Assembly: GCA_021803215.1 (NCBI GenBank)
Contig: JAJZLV010000113.1
Span: 1-36,436 of the forward strand
Length of the DNA stretch: 36,436 nucleotides
From: Actinomycetes bacterium
GTDB taxonomy: Bacteria; Actinomycetota; Acidimicrobiia; Acidimicrobiales; Bog-793
Direction of reading: 5' to 3'
In this document: piece after piece, positions 204 to 12,486 of the stretch
Layout of the letters: the number at the start of each line of letters is the position of its first letter
Numbering within the stretch: the first letter of the stretch is position 1
The notes under the pieces: generated by a model
What the model saw: only the letters and a program-made list of their open reading frames with translations
What the model was told of the DNA's origin: nothing
The model's database searches: none
Made by a program: the position numbers and the translations under genes

Positions 204-1601
204 TCAGGCGAACATCGGGAGCGCCCGCAGGCGCTTCAGTGCGGCGATGAACGCGCTGGCGTGGCGGTAGGCGCGTGGCAGGCGGAGATGGACCCGACGA
301 CCGGTGCGCACGACGCGTGCGGGGACGTTGAAGAAACTGGCCCGGAGGCGTTTGCCCCGACAGGTCGAGAACGCTTCGGGGAGAGCGAGGACCCGCACCC
401 AGCGGGCCACGTTGTAGGCGAGAGCAGACGCCTGCCACCACAGCCAGTTGGCACAGAAGCTCTGCAGCGGTGCGTGGTTCATGCCGAAGTCTTCTTTCAG
501 CTGGCGGATCGCCTCTTCGGGAGCGCCACCTCGGAGACGGTGGTGGTGGTCGATGTCGATGGCCGAAGCGAACATCGGCGGGATGTTGGTGATGACGGTG
601 AAGAACCGCCAACCTCCAAGGTCGTCGAAGCTGAGCTGTTCGCCAGTGGCCTTTCGCTGCCGGCGAACGATGAGACGGAGATCCCGCTTGGCGAAGTGGT
701 AGGTGATCTCGGCCACCTCGGAACCAGCCAGCTCACCGTCGGCCTTCAAGGCCGCAGTCCAGACCGTCTTCGGATTGCTGGCCAGCGCCTCGATCGCCTT
801 GCGTATCGACTTGTTCTGCACGCAGGTGATGGAAAAGGCCGCCGAGTGCCTCGTGGCCGCCTCCATAACCGAACGGGAGAACCCCGCCGAGTCGACCCGC
901 AGCCACAGCTGGTAGTTCGCCCTGGCCTCGGTGGGGATGGCGGCCACACACTCGTCGATGAAACTGGCGAGCTTGCGCCTCGGAGAGGCATTGCCACCCC
1001 GTGCCCGGATCGCGAGTACGTCACCGGTCTCGCCCACCACGCCCACGAGTGGGCTCATCTGCACCTCGCCCTTGTAGGAGAACTTCGAGCCCTCCTTCAG
1101 CTTCCCGAACGTGTCGATGTAGGTCGCGTCGGGATCGACGGTCAAGATCCCTGCTGCCGGCGCTGCCCCCATCGCCCAGGCACGGCGGAGCATGTCGCGG
1201 TTCACCGCTGCCGCCTTGGTCACCCTCCCCAGGTCAGCACCGGCCAAGAAGCGGTAGAGGGTGGTGTGGCTCGGCAACGCGTGGCTGCCCCGCAGGCGCT
1301 TTGTCGCCTCGTCTTGGAGCAGCGACACGTCGGAGATGAAGTCGCCTCCGGCCAACTGCAGCTCCACCACCGGTCGGTAACACTCCCCGCCGCTATAGCC
1401 ACCCGGGCCGATCGGACGCAGCCCCCGGCGGTCGGCGGCATCGACGAGTCCCAGATGATCGAGCAGCTCACCGAACAAGGCGATGCCGGCGACACCAGTC
1501 ACATCGTCTTCGGTCGCCTCGAGGACCACCGGTGCGACACGTTGCCAGGGCCTTGCAACGACAGGGTCCTTGATCTCGAACAGCGTCGCGGTAGTCTTCA
1601 C
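204..1601 (-). CDS. IS1380-family DDE transposase
   Basis: This 465-residue transposase catalyses cut-and-paste movement of the surrounding element. The catalytic signature is visible in order: an aspartate in LTVDPDATYID (about residue 156), RVDSAGF (D237), and the C-terminal acidic motif followed by a helix, EEAIRQLKEDFG (about residues 362-373), then NWLWWQASALAYNVARW. This arrangement is typical of DDE_Tnp_1 group 1 / IS1380 enzymes, and the length is normal. The start is GTG at 1601, preceded by AAGGAGC about 10 nt upstream. No frameshift or internal stop is seen, so the enzyme may be functional. The gene fills nearly the whole element, and its terminal repeats are present at both ends. 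Confidence 0.9.
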   Translation of the reverse strand: MKTTATLFEIKDPVVARPWQRVAPVVLEATEDDVTGVAGIALFGELLDHLGLVDAADRRGLRPIGPGGYSGGECYRPVVELQLAGGDFISDVSLLQDEATKRLRGSHALPSHTTLYRFLAGADLGRVTKAAAVNRDMLRRAWAMGAAPAAGILTVDPDATYIDTFGKLKEGSKFSYKGEVQMSPLVGVVGETGDVLAIRARGGNASPRRKLASFIDECVAAIPTEARANYQLWLRVDSAGFSRSVMEAATRHSAAFSITCVQNKSIRKAIEALASNPKTVWTAALKADGELAGSEVAEITYHFAKRDLRLIVRRQRKATGEQLSFDDLGGWRFFTVITNIPPMFASAIDIDHHHRLRGGAPEEAIRQLKEDFGMNHAPLQSFCANWLWWQASALAYNVARWVRVLALPEAFSTCRGKRLRASFFNVPARVVRTGRRVHLRLPRAYRHASAFIAALKRLRALPMFA

Positions 1602-1702
1602 TTGGTAGGTGCTCCTTCGCTTGGGCGTGAATGTGGTTTCTCAACTCACATCATCCCAGGTAGAGGAGCACTTTCCGCGTCTTTCAGACCCCCGTTGACC
1701 AG

Positions 1703-1723
1703 CGCGGATGAAATATCAGGGTC
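1703..1723 (-). repeat. IS right terminal inverted repeat
   Basis: Ends ATATCAGGGTC at 1723. It pairs with the left end at 1-21 and lies on the transposase 5' side, about 100 bp upstream of the transposase start. Confidence 0.85.
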
Positions 1724-1748
1724 TGAGAAGAGGCGTGGTCTCGCCTCG

Positions 1749-2494
1749 ATGCCGGCGAGCGCCACCGGTCGCATCGCCCCGGGCAGCCGCCTGGCGATCG
1801 TCCGCCCCGGGGAGGCGTTCGTGAGCGCCGAGGAGAGCTTCGGGGGACACGAGAGCTGTCGCGGGCTGACCGCCGCCCGGCGTCACCGGGTGGGAGCGCT
1901 CGCCGCCCGCCTGCAGCAGAGCGGCGAGCTCGCCCGAGCCGTGGCGCTCTACTCGAGCGGGCTGCGCCGGGCAATCGAGACGGCCGAGATCCTGGCGAAG
2001 GCTCTCGGCGGCCTCGAGATCTGGCAGACCTGCTCGCTGTGCGAGCGCCACGTCGGCGGGGCCGACGCCATGACCTGGTCCGACGGCGAGCAGCTCTCCG
2101 GCAGGGCGGTGCCGGGGCGGGACGACCACCGGCAGCGCTCGCGCCCGGCGCCGAGACCTGGGCCGGCTTCCTCGAGAGGGCCGAGGCGGCCCTTTACGAG
2201 GTGATGGCGGCGCAGCACGGCGGTCTCGTCGCCGCGGCCGGCCACGGCGGCCCCGCCGGAGCCTCGGTCGCGCGCTTGCTCGAGCTGCCGGGCGACGGGG
2301 AGGGCTCCCGGGGCTCCGCGGACAACTCCTCTCTCACCGGCTGGGAGTTGACCGGCTGGCGTTGGTGGCTCGTGGGCTGCAACGACGGCGCCCGTCTCGG
2401 GGCCTCGAAGCGGGCGCCGACAGCCGGCCTGCGGCTCCCGCCGCCGGGCTGGATGGGGGAGGGGGCCGGCCCGGCGACCCCTCAGCAGGCGTAG
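1749..2494 (+). pseudogene. Histidine phosphatase (phosphoglycerate mutase-like), decayed
   Basis: The first part, read from ATG 1749, contains LAIVRPGEA and later LYSSGLRRAIETAEILAKAL, the pattern of the histidine phosphatase superfamily. The remainder, ETWAGFLERAEAALYE, then GGLVAAAGHGGPAGASV and TSLTGWELT-like NSSLTGWELTGW, continues only in the next frame to a stop at 2492-2494. A frameshift therefore lies roughly between 2090 and 2150. The RHGE catalytic motif reads RPGE: the phospho-accepting histidine codon CAC has become CCC. The second histidine (GHGG) remains. Frameshift plus loss of the catalytic histidine make this a convincing pseudogene. The IS right end is 25 bp upstream. Its 3' end overlaps the end of the minus-strand gene by 13 bp. 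The original substrate cannot be told. Confidence 0.75.
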
Positions 2495-4980
2495 TCGGGG
2501 TCGAAGGGGTAGTTGTTCGAACCCGGCGTCTCTTGCAGCATGGAGGGGACCCCACCGGCGAAGTCGTAGTAGCCGGCACACCAGTTCGACAGGGCGGCCG
2601 TCGAGGGGTAGCCGGAGCTGCTCGGATAGGGCGGCGAGGTCCAGGGCGCCCCGGCGATCCAGAGCGGCAGCTGGGCGCCGCTCGGGACGAAGTGGTCGGT
2701 GATGATGTTCCACTGCTGGGCCGTCGAGTAGACGCCGACGGTCATGCCCTGGCCCCGCAGGGCGTCTATGGCTCCTTGGATGGTGCGGTCGTTGAGGCTC
2801 GGGGTGCAGGACCAATAGGCGCCCCCGCCGCTCCACTGCTTCGACGAGCAGGAGTCGTTCTCGATGTCGAGCCACCAGACGGGGGCCTTCGCCCCCTGCG
2901 AGGCGGCGTAGGCGAGGGCGCCGACGGCCGAGTTGTAGCCGTAGTTGTAGGCATAGCAGGCCGCCCGCTTCGGGCTGGTGAGCTTCTGACAGCTTCCGGC
3001 CGGGCCGCTCGAGTCCGTCGAGTTCACGCCCGAGGGGGAGTTGAGGAAGATGTAGAGCTGGTACTGGGGAGCCACGCTGCTCCCGGGCAGGCGGGCCTGC
3101 TCGGCCCAGGAGATCTCGGCCTGCAGGCAGTTGTTGTCGGCGCCGAAGGCCCAGCCGTCGACGCCTACGAAGGCGACCGCGAAAGGTGGCCCGGGGAGGC
3201 TGCCGGCCTCGGAGGGGCTCTTCGAGTTGCACTGGGGCCAGCTGACGTCGTAGCCGTAGCTGCCGGGCGGATAGGGGGAGAACTGGGTCGAGGCGAGCGG
3301 CACCGTCGCCGCGATCGCCACCACCGGCGAGGATGAGGCCGAAGCGGGGGGAGCGCCGCCCGAGGGGGCGCCCGCCGCCACGAGCGTGCCCGCCGAGGTG
3401 ACGAGCCAGTAACCGCCGATGCCGCCGGGGGCGGCGGCGATGCCGACCACGGCTGAGGAGAGAGCCGGAGGGGCGAGCGGCGAGCTGGCGTCGCCGAAGG
3501 CGTAGACGTCGCCGGCCGAGTCCACCAGCCAGTAGCCCCTCCCGTCGGGGGTGAGCGCCATCGACACGATCGGATGGGGCAGGGCATGGCCGGCGAGGCT
3601 GCCGTAGCTGCCCGCCTTTCCGAGCGGGTAGACGTCGCCGGCCGAGTTGACGACGAGGGCGCCGGCGCCGCCGGGAAGGACGGCGAAGGCGACGATCGGG
3701 GGTCCGGCATAGCTCGCGGGAAGCGAGGGGATCGAGGGGGCGTCTCCGTAGGCCCGCACGACGCCGCTCGCCGTGCAGAGCCAGTAGCCCTGACCGTCGG
3801 GCGTCGGGACGAGAGCGATGGTGTCCTGGGCCGGCGTCGCCGGGAGAGGCTGTTTTCCGGTCGAGCCGTAGAAGCCTGCGTCTCCGATGTTGTAGACCGA
3901 GCCGTTGGCGGTCACTATCCAGTAGCCCCTCCCGTCGGGGGTGAGCGCCATCCCGACGGCCGGCATGCGCATCGCGATGTTCTCGGTCCCGCCGAAGTTG
4001 CCCGCTCCGCCGAAGCTCGTCACGGTGCCGTTCGCCTGCAGGAGGTCGTAGGCCGTCGGCGGGTCCGGCAGCGGCACGGCGGTGGCGATGCCGACGATGA
4101 GCCTTCCGCCCGAGAGCCCGGAGAGGCCGCCGAGAGAGGGGACCCCGGCGTTCAGCATGGAGCCGCCGGAGGAGACCCCCCAGATCCCCCGGGCGTCCGG
4201 GGCGACGGCCAGGCCGACGGCGGCTCCCACGAGCGATGGCCGGTAGTGCACCTTGCGGGTGCCGCCGAAGGAGAAGACCTGCCCCTTGGCACCGAGCATC
4301 CAGTAGCCGGTCCCGGCCGCGTTGCGGGCGAGAGAGACGATCGGCACCGACAGCCTCCGACGGCCGAGGCCTCCGTAGTTGCGCACATTTCCGAGGCGCC
4401 AGATGACCCCCTTGTCGGTGACGACCCAGGCACCGTGCTGGTTCGGCTCGACGCTGAAGCCGACGATCGGCTGCCTCGCCCGGTTCTGCTTCTTGGTGAG
4501 CGAGGGGATCTTCGGGGCGTCCCCGTAGGCGCGCACCCCGCCGCTGGCGTTGCAGAGCCAGTAGCCGCGGCCGTTCTTGGTGGGGACGAGTGCGATGACG
4601 CGATGCGCCCGGTTGGGAAGAGGTCCCCGCCCGGGCGAGCCGTAGAAGTGGGCGTCGCCCATCCCGTAGACGCTCCCGTTGGCCGTGACGATCCAGTAGC
4701 CGCGCCCGTCTGGGGTGACCGCCATCCCCACCACCGGCATGCGGAGCTTGAGGCTCTCGAGGCCGCCGTAGTAGCCCGCCCCGCCGAAGCTCGAGACGGT
4801 GCCGTCGGCGGAGACGAGATCGTAGGCGAGCCCGCTCGTCGCGCTGGTCCCGGTGGCGGCCCCGGCCCGCGAGGCCGCCGGGAGGGGGAGGACGCCCGCC
4901 AGCAAGAGGAGGGTCGCCGCCGCCGTGGCGGCGAGCGCCGCCGGGAGCCTTCTTGACCGCCAGGCCTGGTGCAACGTCAC
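2482..4980 (-). CDS. Secreted double-propeller protein with GH25-like C-terminal domain
   Basis: The protein is 832 residues from GTG 4980; an upstream GTG at 5061 would add 27 residues but lacks a ribosome site, whereas GAAAG precedes 4980. A signal peptide is clear: basic WRSRRLP, a hydrophobic stretch, then Ala-rich cleavage around residue 42. Residues about 52-305 and 307-560 are two copies of the same module, each with six blades of about 42 residues of the type GYW-V---G-V---GDA---YGS. Such repeats occur in exported proteins of Acidimicrobiia-like actinobacteria. The C-terminal 260 residues start YGYDVSWPQCN and contain WWLDIENDS (about residue 707), resembling the DxE active site of GH25-type TIM barrels and related actinobacterial domains. 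I infer a cell-envelope or peptidoglycan-associated role; the exact substrate is unknown. The gene follows aroG with 206 bp between them. Confidence 0.75.
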   Translation of the reverse strand: MTLHQAWRSRRLPAALAATAAATLLLLAGVLPLPAASRAGAATGTSATSGLAYDLVSADGTVSSFGGAGYYGGLESLKLRMPVVGMAVTPDGRGYWIVTANGSVYGMGDAHFYGSPGRGPLPNRAHRVIALVPTKNGRGYWLCNASGGVRAYGDAPKIPSLTKKQNRARQPIVGFSVEPNQHGAWVVTDKGVIWRLGNVRNYGGLGRRRLSVPIVSLARNAAGTGYWMLGAKGQVFSFGGTRKVHYRPSLVGAAVGLAVAPDARGIWGVSSGGSMLNAGVPSLGGLSGLSGGRLIVGIATAVPLPDPPTAYDLLQANGTVTSFGGAGNFGGTENIAMRMPAVGMALTPDGRGYWIVTANGSVYNIGDAGFYGSTGKQPLPATPAQDTIALVPTPDGQGYWLCTASGVVRAYGDAPSIPSLPASYAGPPIVAFAVLPGGAGALVVNSAGDVYPLGKAGSYGSLAGHALPHPIVSMALTPDGRGYWLVDSAGDVYAFGDASSPLAPPALSSAVVGIAAAPGGIGGYWLVTSAGTLVAAGAPSGGAPPASASSSPVVAIAATVPLASTQFSPYPPGSYGYDVSWPQCNSKSPSEAGSLPGPPFAVAFVGVDGWAFGADNNCLQAEISWAEQARLPGSSVAPQYQLYIFLNSPSGVNSTDSSGPAGSCQKLTSPKRAACYAYNYGYNSAVGALAYAASQGAKAPVWWLDIENDSCSSKQWSGGGAYWSCTPSLNDRTIQGAIDALRGQGMTVGVYSTAQQWNIITDHFVPSGAQLPLWIAGAPWTSPPYPSSSGYPSTAALSNWCAGYYDFAGGVPSMLQETPGSNNYPFDPDYAC

Positions 4981-5147
4981 TGCTCTTTCGTCCTGCTCTC
5001 CGAGCCCCCAGCCGAGCCGGAGTCTTCTGGTGCCTAGGTCACCGCTGACCCTCCGGGCCACGAGAGGGTTTCAACAGAGGAGATGTGAACGTCCGGCTCT
5101 CGACCACCCCCGGCCCGACGAGGCGCCAGTCTAGGCGGGCACCGAGC

Positions 5148-5186: not shown

Positions 5187-6566
5187 TCAGTTCTCCCGCA
5201 GCAGCTCGGCCACCCTGAAGGCCAGCTCGATCGACTGGCGGGCGTTCAGGCGAGGGTCGCAGGCCGTCGTGTACCTGAGCGGCAGCTGCTCGTCGAGGAT
5301 CTCCTCGATGCCGCCCAGACACTCGGTCACGTCGTCGCCCGTGAGCTCGACGTGCACTCCGCCCGGCCAGCTCGAAAGCGCCCGGTGGACGGCGAAGAAG
5401 CCCTTTATCTCGCCGAGGACGTCGTCGAAGTGGCGGGTCTTGCGGCTCGACTCGCTCACGAAGGTGTTGCCGTGCATCGGGTCGCACTGCCAGACGACCG
5501 ACCGCCCGGAGTTGCGCACAGCCTCGACGAGCGGCGGGAGCGTCTCGCGCACCCGCCCGACTCCCATGCGGGAGATGAGCGTGAGCCGGCCCGGCTCGCG
5601 CTCGGGGTCGAGCACCTCGCAAAGGGCCAGGAGCTCCTCGGGGCTGGTCGAGGGGCCGAGCTTCACCCCGACCGGGTTCTTGATGCCGCGGGCGAACTCG
5701 ACGTGGGCACCCTCCAGCTGGCGGGTGCGCTCGCCGACCCAGAGGAAGTGGGCCGAGCAGTCGTAGAAGTCGCCCGTGAGCGAGTCCTGCCGTGTGAGGG
5801 CCTCCTCGTAGCCGAGCAGCAGCGCCTCGTGGCCGGTGTAGAGGTCCACCTGATGGATGGGCGAGTCGCTCGTGAGGTCGACCCCGCAGGCCCTCATGAA
5901 GCGGAGCGCCCGGTCGATCTCCTCGGCGATCGCCTCGTACCGGCGCCCTTCGGCGCTGGCGGCGACGAACTCCTGGTTCCAGGAGTGCACCTGGGAGAGG
6001 TCGGCGAAGCCGCCCTTGGTGAAGGCCCGCAGCAGGTTCAAGGTGGCGGCTGACTGGTGGTAGGCCGTCAGCATCCGATTGGGGTCGGGCACCCGGCCGG
6101 CCGGCACCGGCACGTCGTCGTTGATGATGTGGCCCCGAAAGACCGGGAGCTGCAGGTCACCGACCCGCTCGGTCGGGTGCGAGCGGGGCTTGGCGAACTG
6201 CCCGGCGATCCGACCTATCTTCAAGACGGGTACGCCGGAGCCGTAGGTGAGGACGACGGCCATCTGCAGGATTATCTTCAGCTTGTCCCTTATCGAGTCG
6301 GCCGAGAAGTCGTCGAAGGACTCGGCGCAGTCGCCGGCCTGCAGCACGAAGGCCCGCCCGGCCGCCACCTCGGCGAGGGCTCTTTTGAGCCGCCGCGCCT
6401 CGCCGGCGAACACGAGAGGCGGCAGGGCGCGCAGCCGGCCGTGCACCTGCTCGGCCAGAGAGGGGTCGGGCCACTCGGGCAGCTGGGTGGCTTCTCTCCC
6501 GCGCCAGGAGGTGGGCTCCCACCGCCTTTGTCCAAGGCCTGTGGCGGTCCCGTCCCGTTCGTCCAC
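5187..6566 (-). CDS. aroG: Class II 3-deoxy-D-arabino-heptulosonate 7-phosphate synthase
   Basis: Condenses phosphoenolpyruvate with erythrose 4-phosphate, the first step of the shikimate pathway. The 459-residue protein has the plant/mycobacterial class II pattern throughout: WRGREATQLPEWPD near the N-terminus, LQAGDCAESF with the metal-binding Cys80, KIGRIAGQFAKPRS, GVKLGPS, the WQCDPMHGNT metal histidine, VELTGDDVTEC with the metal glutamate, and TACDPRLN with the metal aspartate. All four expected metal ligands (Cys, His, Glu, Asp) are present. The start is GTG 6566, which has a TACGCT box 7 nt upstream and no Shine-Dalgarno, so a leaderless transcript is likely. It is divergent from the F420-type oxidoreductase gene. 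Known family members are feedback-inhibited, partly through chorismate mutase; no mutase is present here. Confidence 0.95.
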   Translation of the reverse strand: MDERDGTATGLGQRRWEPTSWRGREATQLPEWPDPSLAEQVHGRLRALPPLVFAGEARRLKRALAEVAAGRAFVLQAGDCAESFDDFSADSIRDKLKIILQMAVVLTYGSGVPVLKIGRIAGQFAKPRSHPTERVGDLQLPVFRGHIINDDVPVPAGRVPDPNRMLTAYHQSAATLNLLRAFTKGGFADLSQVHSWNQEFVAASAEGRRYEAIAEEIDRALRFMRACGVDLTSDSPIHQVDLYTGHEALLLGYEEALTRQDSLTGDFYDCSAHFLWVGERTRQLEGAHVEFARGIKNPVGVKLGPSTSPEELLALCEVLDPEREPGRLTLISRMGVGRVRETLPPLVEAVRNSGRSVVWQCDPMHGNTFVSESSRKTRHFDDVLGEIKGFFAVHRALSSWPGGVHVELTGDDVTECLGGIEEILDEQLPLRYTTACDPRLNARQSIELAFRVAELLREN

Positions 6567-10742: not shown

Positions 10743-11435
10743 CTACGGCGCCAGCTTGTACCCGAGCCCGCGGACGGTGATCACATGACGGGGCTCGCTC
10801 GGGTCGAGCTCGATCTTGGTGCGGAGCCGGCGGATGTGGACGTCCACCAGGCGGCCATCGCCGAAGTAGTCGTAGCTCCAGACCCGCTCGAGCAGCTGCT
10901 CTCGCGAGAGGACCTTTCCCGTGTTGGCGGCGAGCTCGCACAAAAGGAGGAACTCGGTCCTCGTCAGGTGGACCTCCTCGCCGTCGCGGCGCACGACGCC
11001 CGCCTCCGGCTGGATCTCGAGGTCCCCGAAGGTGAGGGCGACGGGGCCCTCCTCGCCGGCTCTGGCGCGGCGGAGCAGGGCGCGGATCCGGGCGGCCAGC
11101 TCCTTCGGCTCGAACGGCTTCGTGACGTAGTCGTCGGCTCCCGCCTCGAGACCGGCGACTATGTCGTGGGTGTCGGTGCGGGCGGTCACCATGATGATCG
11201 GCACTGCGCTCGAGCGACGGAGCTCCCTGCAGCAGGCGAAGCCGTCCATCCCGGGCAGCATGATGTCCACCACGAGCAGATCGAACGGCTCGGAGACGAG
11301 CGCCCGGGCATGGGACTCGAGGGCGTCCTCGCCGGTGGCGGCCTCGGCGATCTCGTAGCCCTCGTCCTCGAGCGAGAGCCGCATGGAGGCGCGAATTCGC
11401 TCGTCGTCTTCGACAAGGAGGATGCGGCTCGCCAT
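10743..11435 (-). CDS. mtrA: MtrA-like response regulator (OmpR/PhoB family)
   Basis: A 230-residue two-domain response regulator. The receiver has [11 protein letters not shown], phospho-acceptor Asp57 in [17 protein letters not shown], and Lys106 in [11 protein letters not shown]. The C-terminal winged helix contains [37 protein letters not shown] and [13 protein letters not shown]. The [16 protein letters not shown] stretch is the recognition region closest to MtrA of mycobacteria. It is first in the operon with mtrB and the LpqB-like lipoprotein. The start ATG is preceded by GGGGAAG about 9 nt upstream. Confidence 0.88.
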
Positions 11436-11503
11436 CTGTATATCTTCCCCCAGTCGGTGCCGGCTCCGGTGGTTGAGGCACCGGCCCGGGAAACAGCACC
11501 CGA

Positions 11504-11509
11504 AGCCTA
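11504..11509 (-). promoter_or_regulatory. Candidate -10 box for the mtrAB operon
   Basis: TAGGCT on the minus strand would give a leader of roughly 60 nt that includes a weak ribosome site before mtrA. It is the best TANNNT match in the 166-bp gap between mtrA and xerC. No -35 was recognised. Confidence 0.25.
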
Positions 11510-11589
11510 ACGGGCCTGTTATCTCCCGTCCCTTCCTCGTCGCCGGCCCTGCCCGGATGTTGAATTCAGATCCCGGATCGAGCCTCGGG

Positions 11590-11595
11590 TACCGT
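11590..11595 (+). promoter_or_regulatory. Putative -10 box of xerC (leaderless)
   Basis: TACCGT six nucleotides before the GTG at 11602, without a ribosome-binding site. It supports the GTG start rather than the far-upstream in-frame ATG at 11383, which lies inside mtrA antisense. Confidence 0.4.
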
Positions 11596-11601
11596 TGTGG
11601 G

Positions 11602-12486
11602 GTGGGTTTTGAGCAGGACGGCTTTGCCCGCTCGCTCGTCGGCGAGTCTGCCGCGACCCAGCGGGCCTATCTGGGCGACCTGGGCGCTCTCGTCGGTTGG
11701 CTCGAGCGGGCCGGCTTCGAAGGGCCCGAGGGCGTCGATCGCCTCGTGCTGCGGCGCTATCTCGCCTACCTCACCACCCGGCGCTACGCCAAGCGCACCA
11801 TTGCTCGCAAGGTAGCCAGCATAAGGCGCTACTTCTCGTGGCTCGAGGCGAGCGGACAGATCGCCTCCAACCCGGCCCGCCGCCTCTCTGCCCCGGCGGG
11901 CGACGCCCGCCTGCCCCGGGTGCTCACGAGCGTCGAGCTCACCGAGCTGCTCGATCCGGCCCTGGCCGCCTCGGACGGCGAGGAGGCGGCATGGCGCCTC
12001 AGAGACGACGCCGTCTTGGAGCTCCTCTACGGCTGCGGGCTGCGGGTGAGCGAGCTCTGCGGCCTCGACCTCGACGGGGTCGACCTCAAAGGCGGCTACC
12101 TAACCGTCTGGGGGAAAGGCTCGAAACAGCGCCGCCTCCCGCTCGGCGAGCCGGCGGCGGACGCCCTCGGAGGCTGGATCGAGAGGGGGCGAAGCGCCGT
12201 CGGCGACCTCTCGGCCGTCGGCCCGGCGGTCTTCGTCAACAAGGCACTCCGGCGGCTCTCGGACAGGGACGTCCGGCGCATCCTCGACCGTCGCTCGCCG
12301 GTCCCGACCCACCCGCACGCCCTCCGTCACAGCTACGCCACCCACCTGCTGGACGGCGGGGCGGACCTGAGGGTCGTGCAGGAGCTGCTCGGCCACTCGA
12401 GCCTGCGCACGACGGAGATCTACACCCACGTCTCGACCGACCGGCTCGTGGCCGCCTACGCCGCCTCGCACCCGAGGGCCAGATGA
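11602..12486 (+). CDS. xerC: Tyrosine recombinase XerC/XerD type
   Basis: Resolves chromosome dimers at dif sites together with a second Xer protein. From GTG 11602 it is 294 residues, the usual Xer length. An N-terminal SAM-like core-binding domain ([16 protein letters not shown] to ISNP-like IASNPARRL) is followed by the catalytic domain, with Arg148 in CGLRVSEL, Lys172 in [10 protein letters not shown], His239 and Arg242 in [14 protein letters not shown], His265 in LLGHSS, and the nucleophile Tyr274 in EIYTHVS. All catalytic residues are present. The stop overlaps the whiG start by 4 bp. Whether it is XerC or XerD cannot be decided from one copy, but a xerC-type gene beside whiG and rpsB is usual in actinobacteria. 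Confidence 0.92.

Follow-up and report, generated by a model that had tools for sequence, protein, structure and literature searches.

The window analysed here is a single stretch of DNA of 36,436 nucleotides from a 2.64-Mb genome (95.5% complete) of an actinobacterial host with Acidimicrobiaceae among its nearest named relatives. The gene immediately following that of a class II DAHP synthase, in the same orientation, encodes a protein of 832 amino acids, in which the following features were recognized:

5187..6566, minus strand: class II DAHP synthase, the conserved neighbour immediately upstream in the same orientation
2482..4980, minus strand: gene of the 832-residue predicted double-propeller, GH25-like protein (GTG start at 4980, stop codon included)
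4852..4980, minus strand: signal-peptide-like N-terminus, residues 1-43, read from the sequence
4066..4830, minus strand: predicted propeller module 1, residues 51-305, six blades (blade HMM, module alignment, and strands of a full-length model at modest confidence)
3295..4056, minus strand: predicted propeller module 2, residues 309-562, six blades (blade HMM, AlphaFold2 model, NHL domain as top aligned chain)
2485..3258, minus strand: C-terminal GH25-like domain, residues 575-832, about 258 residues (41 relatives aligned, GH25 profile comparison)
3247..3249, minus strand: D578, paired in the profile alignment with the first active-site Asp of GH25 (YDVS with IDVS)
2860..2868, minus strand: D705-I-E707 within WWLDIEND, aligned with the DxE pair of GH25 (LDIE), invariant in 91 of 91 relatives
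2500..2502, minus strand: D827, present in all 91 relatives and paired with the conserved Asp near the C-terminus of GH25

An alternative upstream GTG at position 5061 would lengthen the protein from 832 to 859 residues. A sister genome encodes a full-length orthologue (71% identical), and no match of the protein was found to any Pfam, NCBIfam or PDB sequence model, nor any usable match in PHROGs. Residues 1-43, read by eye, comprise an n-region with RSRR, a hydrophobic core and small residues ahead of the cleavage region, and a model of the full-length protein has a helix at residues 13-28; this N-terminus probably acts as a signal peptide, by which the protein would be exported or secreted.

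Elsewhere in the window are a tyrosine recombinase of the phage integrase family (367 residues, positions 11383-12486, plus strand) and a histidine phosphatase (PF00300; positions 1650-2494, plus strand) that is split into two frames (1650-2036 and 2039-2494) and adjoined by an IS1380-family transposase (positions 204-1601, minus strand). The split may represent a frameshift, decay or an assembly error.

Twelve repeats in two modules

The blade HMM located twelve repeats of 40-46 residues, arranged as two modules of six (residues 53-92, 94-137, 139-179, 183-221, 225-262 and 265-301 in module 1; residues 311-350, 352-396, 398-438, 440-480, 482-520 and 523-559 in module 2). Local alignment of one module with the other extends over the whole length with a score of 647, compared to 80 for the best of 200 shuffles. 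The scores of blades 1-3 with their counterparts six positions further on (156, 160 and 128) are far above those with any other partners, and blades 4-6 are likewise most similar to theirs (68, 72 and 62); thus, the modules are in register. With the sequence read on the minus strand, this agrees with a preliminary description of it, which had recognized two tandem modules of six repeats with equivalent blades in the same order, and its further observation that the 34-bp stretches at positions 3529-3562 and 3919-3952 are identical was also correct: both encode the common peptide MALTPDGRGYW. That the protein consists largely of twin six-blade modules can be stated with high confidence.

The ends of the modules have the strand pattern expected of propellers that close upon themselves: the first repeat of each module has no preceding PVVGMA strand and the last repeat ends in a PVVGMA-like strand (LIVGIATA in module 1, VVAIAATV in module 2), so that the first and last pieces together would complete one blade. 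An AlphaFold2 model of module 2 with the C-terminal domain, built with 27 sequences, has mostly three strands per repeat in module 2, with pLDDT mostly between 75 and 95. A structure search with this model listed propellers alone, all of them aligned to the propeller module, the top one being the six-bladed NHL domain of TRIM2 (Z 15.9, 215 residues, rmsd 3.6 A); the alignment spans model residues 6-238, and seven-bladed propellers are close, scoring only 1-1.5 lower. The full-length model contains the strand pattern twice, with a mean pLDDT of 68 and modest confidence in module 1.

These predictions would be best explained by a tandem pair of six-bladed beta-propellers, each closed on itself, of an uncatalogued type here called GYW. 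The twin propellers of the preliminary description are supported by the model of module 2 as a propeller and most strongly by the occurrence of blades in multiples of six among relatives (below). When a profile of the module was compared with PDB sequences, it matched the C-terminal domain of GyrA (3no0, E 4e-5) and the RCC1-like repeats of HERC2 (4l1m, E 5e-5), the sole solved structures with E below 0.001. GYW modules resemble GyrA C-terminal and RCC1-like propellers by sequence, but the matches are weak and partial, and those proteins are cytoplasmic and of unrelated function, unlike the 832-residue protein with its predicted export.

The C-terminal domain

A profile of the C-terminal domain, made from 41 relatives in genome contigs, was compared with profiles of two barrel families only, namely GH25 (built from 26 family members) and the Rv2525c-like family (PF08924, formerly DUF1906), and with a propeller profile as a negative control. 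The match to GH25 lysozymes scored 94% (p 1.7e-8, 192 columns) and that to the Rv2525c-like family 77% (p 2.4e-6), versus 0.1% for the control. The GH25 alignment pairs YDVS with IDVS near the start of the domain, WLDIE (within WWLDIEND, residues 702-709) with LDIE, and a C-terminal Q and D with their GH25 counterparts, whereas the weaker Rv2525c-like alignment pairs the D/E-bearing strand and the C-terminal region. All 91 relatives retain D705, E707 and D827, and 90 retain D578, the remaining row having a gap at this position; we take the counterparts of these four residues to be the active-site acidic residues of GH25. Cysteines 584, 618, 801 and 832 are likewise fully or almost fully conserved in the 91 relatives, and cysteines 664 and 675 are common; disulphide bonds may be formed.

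Neither the protein nor its C-terminal domain reaches the cut-off of the Pfam GH25 model (PF01183), and NCBIfam gave no match; among the 41 relatives, three match PF01183, with a best E value of about 0.01. The 832-residue protein likewise has no match to PF08924 at its cut-off, and a weak match was found in only 3 of the 41 relatives. A PDB sequence search with the C-terminal domain profile also found nothing. The models that include the domain have strands alternating with helices, with pLDDT of 40-50 near residues 770-810 of the protein. Thus, the GH25-like domain with WWLDIEND of the preliminary description is upheld by the profile comparison, which also returned a DUF1906-type relationship at a lower score, but not by any match at the level of Pfam. 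Homology to GH25 is judged highly likely from the profile match and the retained residues, with the domain falling outside PF01183 by cut-off, and the domain would accordingly be a (beta/alpha) barrel related to GH25 lysozymes. It differs from them in its sub-cut-off Pfam score and in additional conserved cysteines and tryptophans, and it forms a family of its own.

That this barrel is an active muramidase is the reading we favour, with some reserve. A weak endolysin-family match on the C-terminal domain of one relative is in line with it. The main alternative is a wall-binding role for the barrel, as a domain of the Rv2525c kind that has altered catalysis or is no enzyme at all, in a protein with a structural or adhesive role in the cell wall. 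This would agree with the profile relationship to Rv2525c-like barrels and with the position of the domain under every Pfam cut-off; even for Rv2525c, the proposal of a peptidoglycan hydrolase function comes solely from its structure (Bellinzoni 2014, cited in PMC6572805 and PMC12419801). However, the retention of four GH25-type acidic positions in 91 divergent relatives would be unusual after a loss of catalysis, and the match to GH25 is the stronger of the two, so that a barrel without catalysis appears unlikely.

Less likely still is a glycosidase acting on another polymer, such as an exopolysaccharide, a teichoic-type polymer or a foreign glycan, with the propellers as lectin modules serving nutrition or biofilm formation rather than acting on peptidoglycan. 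Sugar binding does occur in some propeller families, and among the secreted actinobacterial propellers termed VCBS actinolectins some have a TIM barrel ahead of the propeller (PMC8023676), but relatives of the C-terminal domain are joined to peptidoglycan- and wall-binding domains (PG_binding_1, ChW and CWB2, besides FG-GAP regions), and the comparison with barrel profiles, which covered GH25 and Rv2525c only, favoured GH25. The actinolectins differ further from the 832-residue protein in that their barrel is N-terminal to the propeller while its barrel-type domain is C-terminal, and in that its blades show no evident DxDxDG motif of the kind common across the VCBS supercluster.

Relatives and the multiplication of propellers

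The C-terminal domain was found in 33 of 35 genomes of the host's family among the matches listed; additional matches come from other families of the order, where a single propeller is usual. Blade counts were taken from complete genes of the relatives: 53 genes with both the C-terminal domain and blades were scored, of which 42 have 6 blades, four have 12 and three have 18 (49 of 53). The four exceptions have five blades (L011), four blades (L091), one weak match (L025), or are a broken triple-propeller gene (L168); the last, at positions 838-4169 of that locus (G011:C190), is a triple-propeller paralogue split over two overlapping frames. Because a propeller joined to this barrel is normal in the host's family, the double propeller is a variant rather than a unique fusion. 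The architecture was unrecognized in the preliminary description, and it does escape Pfam and NCBIfam, but its single-propeller form with the same barrel is standard in the family.

In at least 24 loci from three families, the orthologue directly follows a class II DAHP synthase gene and has the same orientation. Within this locus, one propeller is present in L051, L053 and L054, two are present in the gene described here and in L004 and L049, and three are present in L166 and L167. Since relatives at one chromosomal site carry one, two or three rings, evolution appears to add propellers as complete six-blade units. A 9.9-Mb actinobacterial genome (G598) has an Rv2525c-like gene beside class II DAHP synthase (L143:1501-3603) that is not an orthologue, and this linkage may or may not be accidental.

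Duplication of half-modules, which the preliminary description had considered probable, was rejected, as blades three positions apart are not consistently more alike than others: similarity at offsets 3, 1 and 2 is 33, 32 and 43, respectively, in module 1 and 69, 57 and 51 in module 2, and offset 3 has the lowest blade similarity in 44 single-module relatives. The identical 34 bp correspond to an 11-residue consensus peptide. Similarity between the two modules is 68-70% for blades 1-3 but only 35-41% for blades 4-6, a difference also seen, less strongly, in several other multi-propeller proteins (L008, L049 and L165-L167), which suggests either homogenization of blades 1-3 or a common binding face.

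The tree of modules places both modules of the 832-residue protein and those of the sister genome in one clade (97/94) and the modules of the lineage of genomes G025 and G026 in another (97/93), and groups the three modules of genomes G010 and G011 together. Reading this full-module tree as at least three independent module duplications was set aside, being weakened when the modules were divided into halves: blades 1-3 reject one older duplication common to the 832-residue protein and the G025/G026 lineage (AU p 0.002 and 0.006), whereas blades 4-6 do not (AU p 0.20 and 0.08), and the tree of blades 4-6 places module 1 of the 832-residue protein apart from its module 2. The doublings in the two lineages may have been separate, with fast divergence of blades 4-6, or there may have been one older doubling, with blades 1-3 homogenized; the tripling in G010 and G011 is clearly a clade of its own, apart in the module trees.

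Highly repetitive propellers are known to arise by repeat amplification, which yields one or two propellers per chain, with WD40 proteins peaking at 7 and 14 blades; amplification there proceeds from single blades, and blade numbers form a continuum (PMC9218822). In contrast, the genes with GYW blades and the C-terminal domain almost all have 6, 12 or 18 blades, and their copies match one another as whole modules.

Within the source genome, the GYW module is portable, and two other proteins encoded there contain it: one (L171:2032-4242, G000:C131) has an N-terminal PF08924 domain and a TIG domain followed by GYW-type repeats, and the other (L172:2331-4691, G000:C102) is exported-looking, with PQQ-like repeats (recognized by eye) followed by six GYW-type blades. 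An N-terminal PF08924 domain is also fused to GYW-type repeats in L100 of genome G066. The Rv2525c-like barrel is N-terminal to the repeats in both of its fusions, unlike the barrel of the 832-residue protein, and these fusions apparently reflect a separate, second event in which a GH-like barrel was combined with a propeller of this type.

Proposed function and significance

We propose, as the reading that fits somewhat better than its alternatives taken together, that the protein is an exported, muramidase-like wall enzyme with tandem wall-binding propellers. The signal-peptide-like N-terminus would direct its export, the barrel would cut the glycan strand of peptidoglycan in the manner of a muramidase by means of D578, D705, E707 and D827, and the propellers would hold the enzyme on the cell wall or another surface polymer, with the second propeller raising avidity or reach. 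As to the propellers in particular, the chances that the wall is what they bind are about even. The bivalent surface binding combined with wall cleavage that was suggested from the outset is plausible.

The distribution of the family suggests that the enzyme probably serves housekeeping remodelling of the producer's own wall, rather than being a phage or weapon protein, because the C-terminal domain is present in nearly all genomes of the family (among the matches listed) and the linkage to DAHP synthase is conserved. A search for phage or plasmid matches to the protein found none, and a phage or plasmid origin of the gene was rejected. Muramidases are common weapons and propeller number differs between relatives, but an antagonistic lysin secreted against competing bacteria, with propellers that recognize the target surface, is very improbable for a protein that is nearly universal in its family, chromosomal, syntenic with a housekeeping gene and free of phage or plasmid relatives, with no immunity gene noticed near its own gene.

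A more tentative suggestion, which we would hold to be possible rather than likely, is that propeller number (one, two or three at one syntenic locus) provides a tunable valency for a wall-cutting enzyme, with blades 1-3 kept alike as a common binding face or by gene conversion and blades 4-6 diverging.

Tandem propellers in one chain, and secreted actinobacterial propellers with a TIM barrel, are already known (PMC9218822, PMC8023676). Our literature search found no paper that joins GH25 with propellers in the present arrangement, and as far as the libraries and papers searched are concerned, the barrel family, the blade family and the nearly strict series of 6, 12 and 18 blades at one syntenic locus are new. 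Pfam and NCBIfam contain no model for either the barrel family or the blade repeat, yet the barrel family is present in almost every genome of the host's family and also well beyond it, and models for the two families would annotate many exported proteins that are at present unnamed. The series of 6, 12 and 18 blades at one locus is a clean natural case in which propellers have multiplied by entire domains instead of single blades, and the existence of proteins with one, two and three propellers permits a direct test of whether the number of propellers sets the binding strength of a cell-wall enzyme.
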